Source: Sulfurirhabdus autotrophica | GTDB taxonomy: Bacteria; Pseudomonadota; Gammaproteobacteria; Burkholderiales; SMCO01 | Length of the DNA stretch: 64,000 bases | Direction: 5' to 3' | Assembly: GCF_004346685.1 (NCBI RefSeq) | Contig: NZ_SMCO01000006.1 | Span: 1-64,000, forward strand | Shown: positions 4,001 through 52,045 of the stretch, in pieces | How positions within the stretch are numbered: position 1 is the stretch's first letter | Layout: each line of letters begins with the position of its first letter | The notes under the pieces: generated by a model | Database searches by the model: none | Told to the model about the DNA's origin: nothing | The model's input: the letters and a program-made list of their open reading frames with translations, nothing else | Position numbers and translations under genes: made by a program

Positions 4001-7000
4001 TGACAAATCGCTCGAGATAGAGAATTGCCTTACCAATACCGTTTTTGATTTGTTGTAGCTTCTGATTAAACTCACCCCATCCGGTATTATTGACTGTTGA
4101 TTCTAAATACTGCCCAACAGGTCCCACTAATTCTTTAGATTCGCCTAAGATTTGAGTCAGGGCAGTCGAATAGGCATGCAATTTTTCAACTGATGAGGCA
4201 AGCTTCGAAATTTTCCTTTCGTCAAAGGTAGATAGGTCAATAGTTTCACTCAGAGTGGTATGGTGAAGCAGCTCAGAGTTACTAGTAGAGTACCACTCCT
4301 GCAAGCGCCTGATTTTTGAAAAATCAGTATCGATGCCCCTAAACAGAGAACCAAATGAAGTCTTGTATTCCTCATTGTTGATAAATGCTGCAAGATGCTC
4401 CATCCAACTGATGAGATCTGAAATTTGTTCCGCATACCCAGCTGCTTTTAACTTCTGCTTATTTTTTGCCATACCAGAGAATAGCTTCTTGGCACGATGC
4501 CAATCTCCATTCAAAAAATTAAAGAAATTATCGCCCCGCCTAAATACTCTTAGGGCATTTTTTAGCTCTTCGGCAGTAGGTAGTGAGTCAAGATAGAACT
4601 TCGAATCGAGTTCGCTACGCATTTTCTCTTCGTGGATAAATGCGTTTTCTGAAGCTTCAATCAGCTCGAGTGCACGAGGGTGCCCAAAGGAGGAACTTCT
4701 ATAATCGAGCAAATCTGTCGGCGCTCGGTTGAAAATGTTGCTCAACACTTCCAAATTTTCCAGCCCTTTTACGGAACCGTCAAAAACAATTCCACCTTGC
4801 TGTGCGATTTCGTTTACTTCGTCGAGTAGTTGCGTGGATTTTTGTAAGACTATGACCAACTTTGCATGTCGCAGACTCAATTCCTGCAAAGATTGTTCTG
4901 GCAGCAATAAGTCATTCGATTGACTTGCCCTGGCAATTTTCCCAATAGGCATGTCGAATAGCAAATACTCAGCAGTTTTTCTGGCGTTCGCGATAATTTC
5001 AGCGTCAACAGTCGTACCTTTCACAACCCCAGTAACACCATCTGGTTGTCCTAACAAGGAAACTGCAGATGGAGATCCATCAAACTCAATTCCACGGATT
5101 TTGGCAATATCTCTTACGCGGCCATAAGAAACACGTAGTCGTAAAACCTCTGAAGCAAGTACTTCAGCTCCAACTTTCAATGCATTGAGCGGCTGACCAA
5201 GTAGCTTCAGCGGCGCTGCTTCTTCGAGTCTACGATTCAAATTTTCTAGCATTGATACCCTTGCCTGAAAATATTGGCAGGGAGTGGAAGTAGCAGTTTT
5301 TTCCAATTCACTAAGAGCAATTTCAGCTGCTGAGATGCATTCCTTGATGGATTCAAGAGGCGAGGTGAAAAAAGCAGGCTTCAGCTCGGACGAACAACGC
5401 CTTGCCATCGGTGCAACTTGTGTAAGCGTTACATTGTTATCCGGCAAAAGTAATGAACAAGCTTTATCGTCAAGAATTTGTGCCTGCCTTAACTTTCCGA
5501 AGGCAGCCTCAAGCGTTCTAATGGGGTAATCAACACGCACTTCTGCGGCTAGCATCTTAGGAAGAAGCAAACTATCCAGATTTTCCGGAGGATCAGGCAA
5601 GAGGCGAATAGCTTTCTCTAAACTGAGAACTGTAGCAATTTCCGGCTCTTCAATAACACCCAGAAATTCAAAACAATTAACGACAGAATCAAATAGATCC
5701 TTTGCGATTTCAATTGCATTAGAGACTATTGTGTCGATAGCCTCCTCATCTCCTGGAATCAACGGACGCGGAAAAAATCCCCACCATGGATGACTTGTAT
5801 CGTATGTACCGATAGCTAAATACATTTGCCCGAAAGCATCCAACTTGGATCGTCTCGACTCAATATCAGCGTAATTCCAGGACTCAACATTGGGTAACTC
5901 AATAGATTGGACTGATTGGGCCAAGTCGCCAATTTGTTGCCTTAGCCTTTCAGTCTTCCAGAAAATGTCGTAGACGGTGAGTTCAAGCTCATTACCAACT
6001 TTACTCCCCATGATGGTGGCGTAGCGGTTGAGTTCCTTCTTTCTTAGCTTAAGAGAGTCAATCTTGCTTTCAAGTTGATGTGGCGCATGAAACCTCTCTT
6101 GAATACGAGCTTCAATATCCTCTAACAGTTTCTTTTTCTGTGTCTTGTGACTGTGAAGTTCAAGGCAAAAATGACCAAGACTGGCTTTATTGAGCCGATA
6201 CCTGACCACCTCAAGAGCAGCTAGTTTGTCTGATACAAACAAAACTTTTTTACCAGCTTTAAGTCCTGCAGCAATGATGTTGGTAATTGTTTGGGACTTG
6301 CCTGTGCCAGGAGGCCCATTAATAACCATATTCTTACCATTGAGTACGTCAATAATCGCGCTATGTTGAGAAGAATCCGCATCGTAAATCAGCGGAGTTT
6401 CTCCCATTGGATGACTATCAATGTCGTAATCAACGGGGAATAGTGCACCACCGTCCCCTGAGCCACCAGAAAATATCTGATTGAGGAGTGGGTGCTCAAG
6501 CAATCCTGGCCATTTTTCCGGGTCTAGGCCCTCCCATAGAGCTAGTTTTCCGAAAGATAGGAAACCCAAAGTGAGTTGGTGCCGGACTCTCCAGCGCTTC
6601 TGATTTTTAAACGCCTCTGCCAATTTATCAAAATAGGTTCCCGGCTCGTCATCCTCATCAAATGTCGGAAGTTGAAGAAGGAAATCTCGACTCAATTTTT
6701 CACGAAGAGTCTGATTCTCATGAATATCCTCATCCGAGTAATGGATGTTATATTGATAGGTTCTGGTTTTGTTGTCAGTTCCAGCACGCTCAAGTCTTAT
6801 CGGCACGGATAGCAGCGGTGCTAACAACGGTTTATTAGAAGCGGGGTTTTCGTAGAATTCCAGGAATCCAAACACTAGATACAACATGTTGGTTCCGGTT
6901 TCTTCAATGACTGTACGAGCCTCAGAGGCAAGTTTGCGGCAAAGTTTATCCAACTCAGCAGGATAGTTTAGGGCCTGCAATTTCGGTGTGTGCTTATTAG

Positions 7001-44817: not shown

Positions 44818-44845
44818 TTAGCTGAGTGAATTACCACTCAGCTAA
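44818..44845 (-). promoter_or_regulatory. Strong hairpin between dsrC and dsrM
   Basis: TTAGCTGAGTG pairs perfectly with CACTCAGCTAA (11 pairs) around a six-base loop. The hairpin lies in the dsrC-dsrM gap 20 bases before the dsrM start. No T-run follows, so it is unlikely to be a simple terminator; it could protect the 3' end of a processed dsrC mRNA and help make DsrC in excess, as the protein needs. Confidence 0.65.
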
Positions 44846-44919
44846 CCGTGACGGACTTATATTATTTTTTCGGAAAATAAAACAATTTATTCCGTGTTAC
44901 TCCTCCACCCATCAACTAC

Positions 44920-47575: not shown

Positions 47576-48877
47576 TTAACCCGCAGCTTTCTTTTTACGT
47601 TCTTCTGCTTTAGCTACTTCTTCATCCCAGCCATCCATACGTGCATATGGATTGCTACGAGGCTCAAGAATCATGTTAGCGTCGATATCAAGACCCACAC
47701 CTTCCAGGAAGTTAACCAAACCAATACGGTCGATCATTTCACCAGTACGCTCATGCTCAAGGGCATTTTCAGCAAAGAAATCAAGAATGTTACGCGACAA
47801 TTCACTCAATGCTTCGAAGTCTTCTTCAGACTCAAGCTTCATGAACGGAATTACAACGGTACCCATTGTTGCACCAATTTTCAGAACACTCTTACCGCCA
47901 ACGAGGATAGTTGCACCCTTATCCATACCTGGAAGTAACGCACCTGGCATGACGTTCAAGCAGTGCATGCAACGTACGCAGTTGTGGTTATCAATTTCAA
48001 GTGACTGGGTGTCTGTTACAGCTACACTGCAGAAACCATCAGCTTTTGAAACATCGCTGGTGTTTTTCAAGGATAGAGCCTTGGTTGGGCAGCGGCTAAT
48101 CACATCATTAACCAGCTTTTCCATTCCGTGGTGCGCCATGTAATCTTTAGCCAGAGCTTCGTTTACACGAATGTTGTCACGCCATGTACCGATAACGGCC
48201 ATGTCTGAACGCTGAATTGCGTTTACACAATCATTAGCACATCCAGAGAATTTGAATTTGAACTTGTAAGGAAGCGCTGGACGATGCATATCATCAATAT
48301 TGCTATTGATAACTGTACGCAAAGCTTTAGCTTCATCGTAGTTTGACATTTCGCAACGAGCTGCACCTACGCATGACATAGATGTACGCAATGCTGGACC
48401 AGCGCCACCCATATCAAAACCCATTTCATTCAACTCATCAAATGCTGGCTGAACGTTTGCAGTTGTAACACCCTGGAACATGATATCGCCACTTTGGCCA
48501 TGGAATGCAATCAGGCCAGAACCGTGCTTTTCCCATGTATCGCAGAATTTGCGAAGAATATCTGTATTGTAGTGCATACCTGCAGGAGGCTGAATGCGCA
48601 GCGTGTGAAATTCTGCTGCTGCTGGGAAAACCGGCTTTTCATTTTCATCTTTCAGTTCGGTAAAGCGTGGAATAACACCACCGCCGTAACCAAACACACC
48701 AACCGTACCACCCTTCCAGTAACCTTTGGTATTTCTGTAGGATGTTTCCAGTTGACCCATCAGGTCAACCATCATGTCGTTGTCTTTTGCCAAACGCTTA
48801 AGGCCGGTAACAAAGCTAGGCCAGGGACCGCTTTCCAGTTGATCGAGCATCGGCGTATCGTGCATTTTCTTAGCCAT
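47576..48877 (-). CDS. dsrA: DsrA, alpha subunit of reverse dissimilatory sulfite reductase
   Basis: 433 residues. Siroheme-proximal cysteines in SMSCVGAARCEMSNYDEA and FKFSGCANDCVN, and ferredoxin domain CVRCMHCLNVMPGAL, as in oxidising-type DsrA. First gene of the dsr operon; CTGGAGAGAAC is its ribosome site. The 400-base divergent region upstream should carry its promoter. Confidence 0.97.
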   Translation of the reverse strand: MAKKMHDTPMLDQLESGPWPSFVTGLKRLAKDNDMMVDLMGQLETSYRNTKGYWKGGTVGVFGYGGGVIPRFTELKDENEKPVFPAAAEFHTLRIQPPAGMHYNTDILRKFCDTWEKHGSGLIAFHGQSGDIMFQGVTTANVQPAFDELNEMGFDMGGAGPALRTSMSCVGAARCEMSNYDEAKALRTVINSNIDDMHRPALPYKFKFKFSGCANDCVNAIQRSDMAVIGTWRDNIRVNEALAKDYMAHHGMEKLVNDVISRCPTKALSLKNTSDVSKADGFCSVAVTDTQSLEIDNHNCVRCMHCLNVMPGALLPGMDKGATILVGGKSVLKIGATMGTVVIPFMKLESEEDFEALSELSRNILDFFAENALEHERTGEMIDRIGLVNFLEGVGLDIDANMILEPRSNPYARMDGWDEEVAKAEERKKKAAG

Positions 48878-49275
48878 AGTTCTCTCCAGTAATAAAATTT
48901 GTTAAAGATTTGCCTACACTTTACGTTAATAAAAGTAGACTCATTTTATAATCAGCAATCCCAAATCGGAACATACAGCATCATACATTCCGTCGTCCTG
49001 CCATGGAACCTCAATAATGAAACCACAACAATGAGAACAGTCCTCAGCCCAATGTCTGGGGTAATATGTTACATCTGTTCGCTTTTATTCCACCACTATT
49101 CTTTTTGATTAGTCCTTACCTACCCAAAAGAGTTACATAGAGACCACCCAAAAGTGTTGTTTTACTATTTTTTCTTGATTAAACATGATCAAATGTTGAT
49201 ACTTTCATCTAACTCTTGATAATGTAAGCAATCGAATTTCTTATTATAACTTTAAAATTTATAGGCACAAGTCCA
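48878..49275. promoter_or_regulatory. Divergent regulatory region of the dsr operon
   Basis: About 400 AT-rich bases between dsrA (minus) and the accessory sulfur genes (plus). A direct repeat ACCCAAAAGAGTT (49122-49134) and ACCCAAAAGTGTT (49146-49158) spaced 24 bases apart is a candidate regulator site on one face of the helix. TTGATTAAACATGATCAAATGTTGAT (about 49178-49203) contains an imperfect palindrome (shown as separate parts: TTGAT, ATGATCAAAT). On the minus strand TATAAA near 48955 may be a -10 element for dsrA. None proven. Confidence 0.6.
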
Positions 49276-49500
49276 GTGGATGAAATAACCAAGTTAGACA
49301 AGTTTGTCGTTTCGCCTTTCAAGCAAGAAATTGAACTGGAACAGGTTGATTATGAAGCAGGTTTTACTAGTTTACGTATAAAAATCCGTGAAAGAAGTCG
49401 TTTTACAATTTTTGATGTAGATACACAAACGGCCGAATATTGGGGTAATGCTCTGATAAATTGGGCCAACGATCAAAAACAGAAAGGAGATTCAAAATAG
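49276..49500 (+). CDS. Small conserved dsr-associated protein (74 aa)
   Basis: GTG start. Residues MDEITKLDKFVVSPFKQEIELEQVDYE then FTSLRIKIRERSRFTIFDVD suggest a beta-rich small domain; I have a recollection of similar short proteins near dsr genes in other sulfur oxidisers but cannot name a function. First gene divergent from dsrA. Its TAG stop overlaps the probable start of the Cas6-like gene, and a strong AAAGGAG site for that gene lies inside its last codons. Confidence 0.65.
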   Translation: MDEITKLDKFVVSPFKQEIELEQVDYEAGFTSLRIKIRERSRFTIFDVDTQTAEYWGNALINWANDQKQKGDSK

Positions 49501-50138
49501 GCTGGCCTACTGACGACGGTGTAACGGCGCCAGACGTAGATGAATCTGCCGTTGTAGATGTCCATTTTGATATTATTGGTAACACGATTCCAATTGATCA
49601 TGGATACACTTTATTTCTTGAGTTATCCAGGATTCTGCCCTGGATAGCGACCGAAGATCTGGTGGGTATTCACCCTATTCAAGGAGCGGATACAGGGCAT
49701 GGTGAGTACATATTAAACCGACGCACCAAAATAGTTGTCCGTGTGCCTTCTAATCGCGCTGAAGAATTATTGACTTTAACTGGCAAAACCATTCATTTCG
49801 GTTCGAATAAAGTTGAAATTGGTAAAGGTAAAGTGAAACCATTAAGTCTTCACACGCCTCTTTATGCACATTGTGTAACCACTGGCAGCACTGATGAGCA
49901 GACTTTTGCTTCAGATGTCATCAAATTATTAGATGAAAAGAAACTCACAACACGTTTCATATGCGGCAGGCGTCAAACAATTTCGACTGCGGAAGGCGTT
50001 GTTTATGGTTACAGCTTAATGCTGCATGATTTGCCGATTGAACACGCTATTTTGTTGCAACAAACTGGTATCGGCAGCAATCGTAAACTGGGCTGCGGGA
50101 TTTTTATTCCGCACAAATCTATTGCTGCGTTGACTTAG
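49461..50138 (+). CDS. Orphan Cas6/Cmx6-like (I-MYXAN type) endoribonuclease-fold protein
   Basis: About 212-225 residues. VVDVHFDIIGNTIPIDHGYTLF (with DHGY, His as in Cas6 catalysis), VGIHPIQGADTG, and the C-terminal Gly-rich RNA-binding loop GIGSNRKLGCGIFIPHKS are the signature of the Cas6/Cmx6 family, which processes CRISPR precursor RNA. No CRISPR array or other cas gene is in the window. Start: ATG at 49461 has no ribosome site, whereas AAAGGAG (49483-49489) is placed seven bases before an in-frame ATA (49497) that overlaps the upstream TAG stop, so an unusual start is possible. Function with dsr genes unknown. Confidence 0.85.
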   Translation: MGQRSKTERRFKIGWPTDDGVTAPDVDESAVVDVHFDIIGNTIPIDHGYTLFLELSRILPWIATEDLVGIHPIQGADTGHGEYILNRRTKIVVRVPSNRAEELLTLTGKTIHFGSNKVEIGKGKVKPLSLHTPLYAHCVTTGSTDEQTFASDVIKLLDEKKLTTRFICGRRQTISTAEGVVYGYSLMLHDLPIEHAILLQQTGIGSNRKLGCGIFIPHKSIAALT

Positions 50139-50160: not shown

Positions 50161-50192
50161 GGCATTGGCTTCGGTTGATGCCATTTTTTTTT
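50161..50192 (+). terminator. Rho-independent terminator after the Cas6-like gene
   Basis: GGCATTGG-CTTCGG-TTGATGCC (22 bases, some G-T pairs) followed by nine T. Separates the Cas6-like gene from rspA. Confidence 0.85.
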
Positions 50193-50218: not shown

Positions 50219-50548
50219 ATGGGTTATGTAGTCGATGGCGTTGAGCTCGAAACAGATGATCAGGGATTCCTGCTGGAGCCCAACTACAGCGAAGAAATTG
50301 TCAGCCTTATTGCTGAAGCTGAAGGGATCAAATTGACTGATGACCATTGGTTAGTTGTAAACTATATGCGTGATCAATATAAAGAAAATGGACACACTCC
50401 TAATTTTCGAAATATGTTGAAAGGCTTTTCAGAAATTCGTCCTGGCACAGACAGCAAGTTTCTATATGATCTATTTCCATTAGGTCCAGCAAAACAAGCA
50501 CCAAAGGTTGCTGGTTTACCTCAACCGTTAGGAAAAGGCGGTTACTAA
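50219..50548 (+). CDS. Cysteine-free DsrC homologue (RspA-like)
   Basis: 109 residues, same fold and length as DsrC (VDGVELETDDQGFLLEPNYSEE; LTDDHWLVVNYMRDQYKENG; FLYDLFPLGPAKQAPKVAGLP). Both redox cysteines are replaced: ACKI becomes APKV, and GCI becomes a tail ending GKGGY. It cannot carry sulfur and belongs to the regulatory-type (RspA) class of the DsrC superfamily. AAGGAG lies before the ATG and its own terminators flank it, so it is expressed alone and perhaps abundantly. Some family members were proposed to bind DNA or partner proteins; not shown here. Confidence 0.9.
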   Translation: MGYVVDGVELETDDQGFLLEPNYSEEIVSLIAEAEGIKLTDDHWLVVNYMRDQYKENGHTPNFRNMLKGFSEIRPGTDSKFLYDLFPLGPAKQAPKVAGLPQPLGKGGY

Positions 50549-51484: not shown

Positions 51485-52045
51485 ATGCGCATTAAAACAG
51501 TCTGGTTTAGAAAAGATGGCGATACTAGAGGAGCTGAAGAAACCGCGGGTGCTATTGCATCTATTCTGTGGCGACTTTCCGATGCTGCTGTTATCAATTT
51601 ATCCAAAGCTGAATTTGACATTATTACGCCGCAACGAGGTTTCGGTATCATGGCAGAATTACAGGCATTCATGGTGCACCTATGCGACAGAATGCTTTAT
51701 GACCGTGTGGATGAAGACCAACGTGTGCCAATGATTCAAACTTTGGCTAAACGGTTGGCAACAATCATGGAAGACAATATTCATATGGTTGTCGGTGATC
51801 ATGACTACCCATACCAAGCTGACTTTATCGCGATGGTCAATCGTCGTAGCGATGAATACGCAACGTATGATTTTATTCCTGAAAAACCCAGTTACTCCGT
51901 TCTCACCTTTCTTGGCAACCAGATCCGTGAAATCATGGGTGAGCGGGACCAGTCATGGGTGGTAGACCAGATCATCGAGATAGAAACCCCTGAAATTGTT
52001 GAAACAATCAGAAAGGCGATTGATGGCCTGCTTAATCAGCCATGA
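51485..52045 (+). CDS. Conserved hypothetical protein of the sulfur cluster (186 aa)
   Basis: Soluble, mainly helical, with several conserved-looking short blocks (AEETAGAIASILWRLSDAA; FMVHLCDRMLYDR; VVGDHDYPYQADFIAMVNRR) and no Cys besides one in LCDRM. No recognised enzyme motif. Starts four bases after the sulfurtransferase stop and is followed after 31 bases by the TauD-like gene, so it is co-transcribed with them. I do not know its function. Confidence 0.8.
   Translation: MRIKTVWFRKDGDTRGAEETAGAIASILWRLSDAAVINLSKAEFDIITPQRGFGIMAELQAFMVHLCDRMLYDRVDEDQRVPMIQTLAKRLATIMEDNIHMVVGDHDYPYQADFIAMVNRRSDEYATYDFIPEKPSYSVLTFLGNQIREIMGERDQSWVVDQIIEIETPEIVETIRKAIDGLLNQP

Follow-up and report, generated by a model that had tools for sequence, protein, structure and literature searches.

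The Cas6-like gene beside dsrA in the 64-kb window analyzed here (positions 1 to 64,000 of contig NZ_SMCO01000006.1 of Sulfurirhabdus autotrophica) represents a family of Cas6 relatives that is tied to the dsr sulfur-oxidation locus, and this family almost certainly has a dsr-linked role that is independent of CRISPR. Cas6 is the CRISPR RNA processing enzyme. In our main reading, to which we assign a probability of about 0.5, the protein would be a domesticated Cas6 that binds, and perhaps cuts, RNA together with a cysteine-less DsrC paralogue and regulates sulfur-oxidation genes, the regulatory part being suggested by gene order. The features of the window are as follows:

44818..44847, minus strand: hairpin behind dsrC, as folded here; hairpins of this kind also occur in genomes lacking Cas6
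47576..48877, minus strand: dsrA, which opens the divergent dsr operon (TIGR02064, 505.8 bits)
48878..49275, no strand: intergenic region between dsrA and the DUF6967-Cas6-DsrC2 genes, where divergent promoters are expected
49276..49500, plus strand: DUF6967 small protein (PF22295, 95.6 bits), GTG start; an in-frame ATC at 49231 is possible
49483..49489, plus strand: Shine-Dalgarno sequence AAAGGAG of the Cas6-like gene, read from the sequence
49497..50138, plus strand: Cas6-like gene, 213 amino acids from ATA; Cas6 domain with the DHGY His and GCGIFIPHKS (PF09559, TIGR02807, PADLOC, and fold)
50161..50192, plus strand: terminator-like hairpin with a T run in the spacer that separates the Cas6-like gene from the DsrC paralogue (-14.8 kcal/mol)
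50219..50548, plus strand: DsrC paralogue ending in KGGY, without C-terminal cysteines (PF04358, 107.2 bits against 24.9)

By profile scores and by superposition of its AlphaFold model, the gene product is a true Cas6 relative, in agreement with the Cas6/Cmx6-like protein named in the first-pass annotation. The open reading frame scores 203.4 bits against the PF09559 Cas6 profile (cut-off, 26.7) and 155 bits against TIGR02807, cas6_cmx6 (cut-off, 98.85); six PADLOC Cas6 models match it as well, and the NCBI family model names it a "type I-MYXAN CRISPR-associated protein." The two motifs that had been pointed out, DHGY and the Gly-rich C-terminal stretch (GCGIFIPHKS), are both found in the translation. 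Among solved structures searched by sequence to an E value of 1, the sole relative is 8fcj_B, the Cas6 of a type I-B CAST Cascade (E value, 2.5e-19). An AlphaFold2 model built on an alignment of 50 sequences (the window protein and relatives, from 79 prepared) has a mean pLDDT of 89.8 and superposes on 8fcj_B with a Z-score of 26.5 over 201 residues (2.5 Å, 27% identity), and many other Cas6 structures align at Z-scores of about 9 to 17. The Cas6-related proteins of Pyrococcus furiosus and relatives (3ufc and 3qjj; Z-score of about 17) likewise have the Cas6 fold and provide a precedent for a Cas6 without the complete catalytic set, 3ufc presumably being noncatalytic; Pyrococcus-type proteins of this kind are known from archaea that carry CRISPR. 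With the type I-MYXAN and I-B Cas6 proteins (Cmx6, e.g., 8fcj), the window protein has in common the family, the fold, the DHGY His, and the Gly-rich loop. It differs from them in standing without adjoining cas genes or an array, in falling into a separate clade on a long branch, and in being encoded by a gene of a type tied to dsrA and the KGGY DsrC; furthermore, dsr-linked proteins have E rather than P at alignment position 124, a C-terminal PHK, and a history of repeated His loss.

The surroundings of the gene were compared across 92 loci, namely, the best 80 of 192 relatives returned by a scan of 84,980 species genomes, 11 carriers from a 60-genome sample (the own genome included), and one further locus; two of the 92 are the window itself. 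The best 80 of the 192 relatives come from Sulfuricella, Sulfurimicrobium, Sulfuriferula, Thiobacillus, and other genera. The arrangement described earlier for the window, with a divergent dsrA, a small upstream protein (DUF6967), and a downstream DsrC-family gene (PF04358), is present as described. A DsrC paralogue lies 3' of the Cas6-like gene on the same strand in 92/92 loci, and dsrA stands in front on the opposite strand in 87 of the 92. Loss of the gene from dsr neighborhoods in relatives would speak against a sulfur-specific role, and the comparison found retention: disregarding the window's two copies, 85 of 90 loci keep the divergent dsrA, and in the remaining 5, the contig ends before the place of dsrA. 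A further gene of the window (positions 51485 to 52045) encodes a 186-amino-acid protein without a Pfam match at an E value of 0.01; it is present in 88 of the 92 loci.

The association extends to a class sample of 274 genomes spread evenly over Gammaproteobacteria (in the GTDB sense). PF09559 Cas6 matches occur in 91 of these genomes and DsrA occurs in 94, where fragments down to an E value of 6e-33 count as DsrA (87 of the 94 genomes exceed the cut-off). Both are found in 87 genomes, Cas6 only in 4, DsrA only in 7, and neither in 176 (Fisher P value, 1.9e-57). For each of the 4 Cas6-only genomes, the contig runs out at, or close to, the expected place of dsrA. Among the 6 of 7 DsrA-only genomes that were inspected, there are 5 in which either the contig stops upstream of dsrA short of the site expected for Cas6 or dsrA itself is missing its 5' part; the sole one whose contig continues without Cas6 is G269. 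Where the Cas6-like gene and dsrA share a contig, they are divergent neighbors in 65 of 66 cases, with a median gap of 1.7 kb and a maximum of 4.5 kb; in G167 (1.4 Mb), 41 kb separate the two. They lie on separate contigs in 25 of the 91 carriers. A TauD-type gene is found between them in 11 of the 14 fetched gammaproteobacterial loci that show both genes. As such, the divergent same-contig pairs and the related loci that keep dsrA uphold the proposal that this Cas6 is linked to the sulfur locus rather than to CRISPR.

The first-pass annotation had left room for two CRISPR-based explanations, a leftover of a lost system and an array elsewhere in the genome, and both are disfavored. Its observation that the 64 kb contain no CRISPR array holds: a simple array finder, run on 186 loci, detected none in the window or in any dsr-linked locus and detected arrays in 2 of 6 CRISPR-linked cyanobacterial plasmid loci. 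None of cas3, cas8, cas7, and cas5 was seen among the neighbors of the Cas6-like gene, which thus do not make up a type I-MYXAN system locally. In the own genome, a profile search gave no Cas1 match, and all Cas3-core matches stayed under the cut-off (best, 43.2 bits; cut-off, 102); in controls, 14/14 matched the Cas3 core, 6 of them above the cut-off. We take the own-genome Cas3-core matches to be ordinary helicases. Across the class sample, Cas1 is missing from 49 of the 91 Cas6 carriers, and its frequency (42/91 carriers versus 62/183 other genomes) does not differ significantly (P = 0.064). Since every Cas1 match with an E value of up to 0.001 entered the count, weak ones included, CRISPR-bearing carriers may be overcounted.

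Maturation of crRNA in trans, for arrays elsewhere in the genome, would draw on membership in the Cas6 family and on the Cas1 match in those 42 carriers. We regard it as very improbable, given the Cas1-free carriers, the own genome among them, and a Cas1 association that is not significant next to an overwhelming association with DsrA. That the gene is left over from a lost CRISPR system fits the absence of cas genes around it, and the probability of this is close to nil: the frame is open, residues are invariant and synteny is held over 130 distinct sequences, and the gene is kept in small genomes. The relic reading is refuted by this conservation, which spans Beta- and Gammaproteobacteria. 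Because the gene is conserved and many carriers are Cas1-free, including four with genomes of 1.0, 1.1, 1.1, and 1.4 Mb, we consider it neither a relic nor part of CRISPR.

Relatives with CRISPR neighbors were found on cyanobacterial plasmids, where six of seven adjoin cas3, a cas8-type gene, and cas5. The seventh (L122, Gloeobacter morelensis plasmid, positions 5974 to 6765), annotated as type I-MYXAN, is another orphan Cas6; it lies in 12.6 kb without annotated cas neighbors and adjoins a PAPS-reductase-family gene and a cupin gene. This is possibly a further non-CRISPR use or a defense island.

In a phylum sample of 299 genomes (DsrA counted to an E value of 1e-40), DsrA was found in 52 genomes and Cas6 in 4, and those 4 are DsrA genomes of the own class. 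Cas6 is absent from all 48 DsrA genomes of other classes in this sample, whose Dsr may or may not run in the oxidative direction. These 48 genomes indicate that the Cas6-like protein is dispensable for dsr chemistry as such, and necessity for the pathway was rejected as an explanation on the same ground.

Residue conservation was examined after removal of identical cores (147 rows reduced to 137), with 130 dsr-linked sequences compared to 6 CRISPR-linked sequences. R66, R72, and E124 are invariant in 130/130 distinct dsr-linked sequences. R72 and the Gly loop are common to both groups; R66 occurs in 1 of the 6 CRISPR-linked sequences and E124 in none (P in 6/6), and H196 and K197 are missing from all 6, the C-terminal H/K pair being usual in dsr-linked sequences only. 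The G-C-G of the Gly-rich loop is found in 87/87 betaproteobacterial sequences at each position and in 42, 41, and 43 of the 43 other dsr-linked sequences. In Cas6 proteins, the Gly-rich loop and basic residues face the RNA. Here and below, "beta" loci are L001 to L092, and "gamma" loci are L093 to L121 and L129 to L148 (from the class sample), labels that follow the source of the loci rather than the taxonomy of each genome.

The DHGY His near the N terminus, which we take to be the catalytic (general acid/base) residue of Cas6, behaves differently from these residues. It is present in the window protein, in 6/6 CRISPR-linked and 43/43 gammaproteobacterial sequences, and in 45 of 87 betaproteobacterial sequences; in the other 42 distinct betaproteobacterial sequences, from Thiobacillus and a few others, it is replaced by N (33 sequences), S (6), Y (2), or D (1). 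A tree of 136 rows (one further row removed), calculated with the His column left out, places the 129 dsr-linked rows on one side of a branch of length 1.66 with an SH-aLRT support of 99, and the His state requires at least 6 changes on it. These would correspond to approximately five losses and one regain, a count that is approximate because the tree is a quick one with a poorly supported base and long branches that are perhaps misplaced. With the His lost about five times, as estimated from the tree, cleavage would not be required for the conserved function. Since the putative catalytic His goes while the loop and the clade-specific residues stay, the protein is likelier a binder than a cutter. 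Of the earlier description as a Cas6-type RNase, the kinship to Cas6 thus stands, and the RNase nature remains putative, the His being gone in nearly half of the betaproteobacterial sequences.

The same losses would suit a mere scaffold, in which the Cas6 fold no longer binds RNA and serves DsrC or a Dsr enzyme complex as a structural partner, as would the DsrC paralogue that follows in 133 of 140 loci. We consider such a scaffold quite unlikely, as the Gly-rich loop and R66, R72, and K197 are invariant or nearly so.

The DsrC paralogue is the closest companion of the Cas6-like gene. A DsrC-family gene lies within 700 nucleotides 3' of it in 133 of 140 dsr-linked loci, a tally in which re-fetched genomes are counted again; in the other 7, no DsrC gene follows on the same strand within that distance. 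KGGY ends 131 of the 133 downstream DsrC open reading frames (106 distinct tails), where it occupies the place of the last Cys of DsrC; the remaining two are masked or read through. The last 26 residues contain no Cys in 113 of the 133 and one Cys in 20; this lone Cys is always at the QGC position and never last, and the window copy has none. Among the 65 other DsrC-family open reading frames at these loci, two Cys near the end are found in 59 and a single Cys in 2; 3 are truncated, and 1 has another KGGY form. By its PF04358 score, the KGGY paralogue belongs to the DsrC family, and it lacks the two cysteines by which the DsrC sulfur carrier is defined. DsrC paralogues without cysteines bear the name RspA; the window paralogue has DsrC family membership and C-terminal Cys loss in common with them and differs in its KGGY end and in adjoining the Cas6-like gene. 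KGGY DsrC also occurs without Cas6, in 5 of 12 DsrA genomes of other classes (L174 to L177 and L179), so this DsrC does not strictly require Cas6 as its companion. Its neighbor is presumably a glutaredoxin-like open reading frame in L174 and a TtcA-like one, which we take to be a tRNA thiolation enzyme, in L175.

This last neighborhood touches on tRNA. In other bacteria, TusE hands sulfur towards tRNA. The Cas6-like protein and the Cys-less DsrC might therefore bind, protect, or modify tRNA at high sulfur flux: the paralogue belongs to the DsrC/TusE family, it adjoins the TtcA-like frame in L175, which is of another class, and an RNA-binding partner would suit. We find this unlikely, since the KGGY DsrC has no penultimate Cys, the TtcA-like neighborhood is a single one in a Cas6-free genome, and the conserved link is to dsrA. 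In Allochromatium vinosum, according to PMC5944118, DsrC binds DNA upstream of the dsr cluster. This suggests that DsrC-type proteins can regulate dsr, but the protein concerned is DsrC itself and not the KGGY paralogue.

The open frame at positions 49461 to 50138 that had been reported is confirmed, but its TTG start at 49461 is very probably wrong; judged from the sequence, the true start is very probably ATA at 49497. ATA 49497-49499 stands 7 bases after AAAGGAG and overlaps the TAG stop (49498-49500) of the DUF6967 gene. Start codons were surveyed in L002 to L092 (91 loci, of which 9 were unscorable; one TTG, in L037, was dropped as a mis-hit), and the codon at the homologous place in 82 loci is ATA in 29, ATG in 24, ATC in 13, GTG in 13, and TTG in 3. 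A Shine-Dalgarno sequence precedes the ATA (26) or ATC (13) in 39/39 distinct loci. In 20 of these 39, an in-frame upstream ATG, GTG, or TTG is wholly absent. In 30 of the 39, a canonical start lies at most 19 codons downstream; we do not prefer it, because its place is not common to all ATA/ATC loci. The homologous start place reads M-S/N/T-W in Thiobacillus-type loci and M-F/Y-W in many gammaproteobacteria, and ATA-GGC-TGG of the window matches this pattern of ATG, GTG, or TTG followed by x-Trp in other lineages. Because this alignment fits, a noncanonical AUA/AUC start seems to be kept within the window's clade (39 distinct loci). In Escherichia coli, a noncanonical start of infC reportedly couples translation to initiation fidelity. 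Annotation pipelines may put the start of the Cas6-like gene in the wrong place.

The small gene in front encodes DUF6967, which was found in 84 of the 92 loci; two of the 8 loci that lack it are truncated, and it is missing from 6/92 betaproteobacterial loci with dsrA in view. It was detected in just one gammaproteobacterial locus. An AlphaFold2 model built on 43 of 68 prepared sequences (pLDDT, 93.9) has four strands and a helix, and Pur-alpha and PC4 top its fold search list, the best match being Borrelia Pur-alpha (Z-score, 7.8; Foldseek E value, 0.2). Whirly appears lower in the list, and COMMD, KhtT, and SAS-6 domains appear at Z-scores of 5 to 6.5. Pur-alpha, PC4, and Whirly are single-strand nucleic acid binders. 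Given the low Z-score, the E value, and the other domains in the list, the modeled likeness is only a hint that DUF6967 could be a PUR-alpha/PC4-like nucleic acid binder. A relationship of DUF6967 to PAPS reductase (14.3 bits against a cut-off of 254) was taken as chance and rejected.

An RNA target of the Cas6-like protein was sought upstream of dsrA, in the spacers that lead from the Cas6-like gene to the DsrC paralogue, and in the spacers of the dsr operon, and none was found in these regions. Hairpins below -18 kcal/mol were called strong, with crude shuffle controls (6 per spacer); upstream of dsrA, very large z-scores arising from folds of near-zero energy were disregarded. The hairpin behind dsrC, which the first-pass annotation had placed at 44818 to 44845 and near which it had suggested mapping cleavage, is real and recurs in betaproteobacteria but does not track Cas6. 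Strong hairpins occur in betaproteobacterial dsrB-dsrE (59/61), dsrC-dsrM (48/57), and dsrA-dsrB (37/62) spacers. In gammaproteobacteria, they occur in 10 of 19 dsrA-dsrB and 2 of 4 dsrC-dsrM spacers, and 3 of 19 dsrB-dsrE spacers reach 25 nucleotides, all 3 with a strong hairpin. In dsr loci of other classes (L162 and up; those sampled are without Cas6), the dsrC-dsrM hairpin is strong in 6 of 8 spacers of at least 25 nucleotides. With 6/8 in Cas6-free classes and 2/4 in the gammaproteobacterial dsrC-dsrM spacers, the dsr spacer hairpins do not follow Cas6. Among the spacers listed that separate the Cas6-like gene from the DsrC paralogue, no hairpin is common to the relatives.

In betaproteobacteria, the dsrB-dsrE and dsrC-dsrM hairpins bracket dsrEFHC. 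In A. vinosum on sulfide, dsrEFH and dsrC transcripts exceed that of dsrA, according to PMC3397948 (citing Grimm and others). The dsr hairpins may be simple mRNA stabilizers, and segmental stability would explain the higher level of dsrEFHC mRNA.

Long dyads of the type CTACYCCATATGGGTAG stand upstream of dsrA in many betaproteobacteria (e.g., L053, L073, and L062), and we assume a resemblance to NarL heptamers. In the window, the CTACYCCATATGGGTAG pattern matches only with 2 mismatches, which is not above chance. The dyads were set aside as an RNA target, because these sequences can equally well be read as a DNA operator, a candidate site for some dsr regulator, and the window match is no better than chance.

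Taken together with the genomic evidence, our main reading can be laid out as a mechanism. Cas6 would have left CRISPR immunity long ago and would have been passed on ever since with the dsr locus in Beta- and Gammaproteobacteria; we infer the direction and timing of this recruitment, next to the observed co-occurrence, synteny, and separate clade. Going by gene order, the Cas6-like protein would partner the Cys-less DsrC paralogue encoded next door, and in most betaproteobacterial loci, the small DUF6967 protein, maybe a nucleic acid binder, would join as a partner. The Cas6-like protein would recognize an RNA element and so tune the expression of sulfur-oxidation genes. The DsrC paralogue could fill DsrC binding sites and could not carry sulfur on a last cysteine, and it might thereby report the state of the pathway to the regulation exerted by the Cas6-like protein. 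RNA cleavage may persist in lineages that keep the DHGY His, and AUA/AUC initiation would hold the protein at a low level in one clade. A more specific version, which we put forward tentatively and expect to fail somewhat more readily than to hold, is that a CRISPR-free ribonucleoprotein (Cas6, the Cys-less DsrC, and, in betaproteobacteria, the PUR-like protein) senses the state of the sulfur relay and either controls or processes transcripts of dsr genes or tRNAs in most dsr-bearing oxidizers among Gammaproteobacteria (GTDB), with a Cas6 level that depends on initiation fidelity in the AUA/AUC clade.

Among open-access PMC titles and abstracts (subscription journals and preprints being outside this scope), we found no report of a dsr-linked Cas6, and DUF6967 has no mention in the open-access PMC literature searched. 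The cas6-dsr neighborhood has nevertheless been drawn in print: the Figure 3B legend of PMC10989796 (mLife 2023) assigns purple to cas6 among dissimilatory sulfur genes of mangrove metagenome-assembled genomes. In that paper, cas6 is named once, in this legend, and CRISPR nowhere; the map apparently shows the same arrangement, in Burkholderiales or Chromatiales genomes, and leaves cas6 unanalyzed. In the retrieved passages of other open-access papers that name Cas6 and a dsr term, Cas6 appears within CRISPR or in passing, and a word search of the comparative papers PMC11406059, PMC6397845, and PMC10504309 finds no CRISPR. An analysis of the neighborhood was thus not found in the open-access literature searched.

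The regular presence of Cas6 in dsr loci, even in small Cas1-free genomes, would amount to the exaptation of a CRISPR protein and would also make tallies of "orphan Cas6" in CRISPR surveys misleading. The findings suggest that an energy pathway has taken on an RNA-binding protein, frequently in genomes that have no CRISPR genes, and the dsr-linked Cas6 points to RNA as one level at which sulfur oxidation is controlled.
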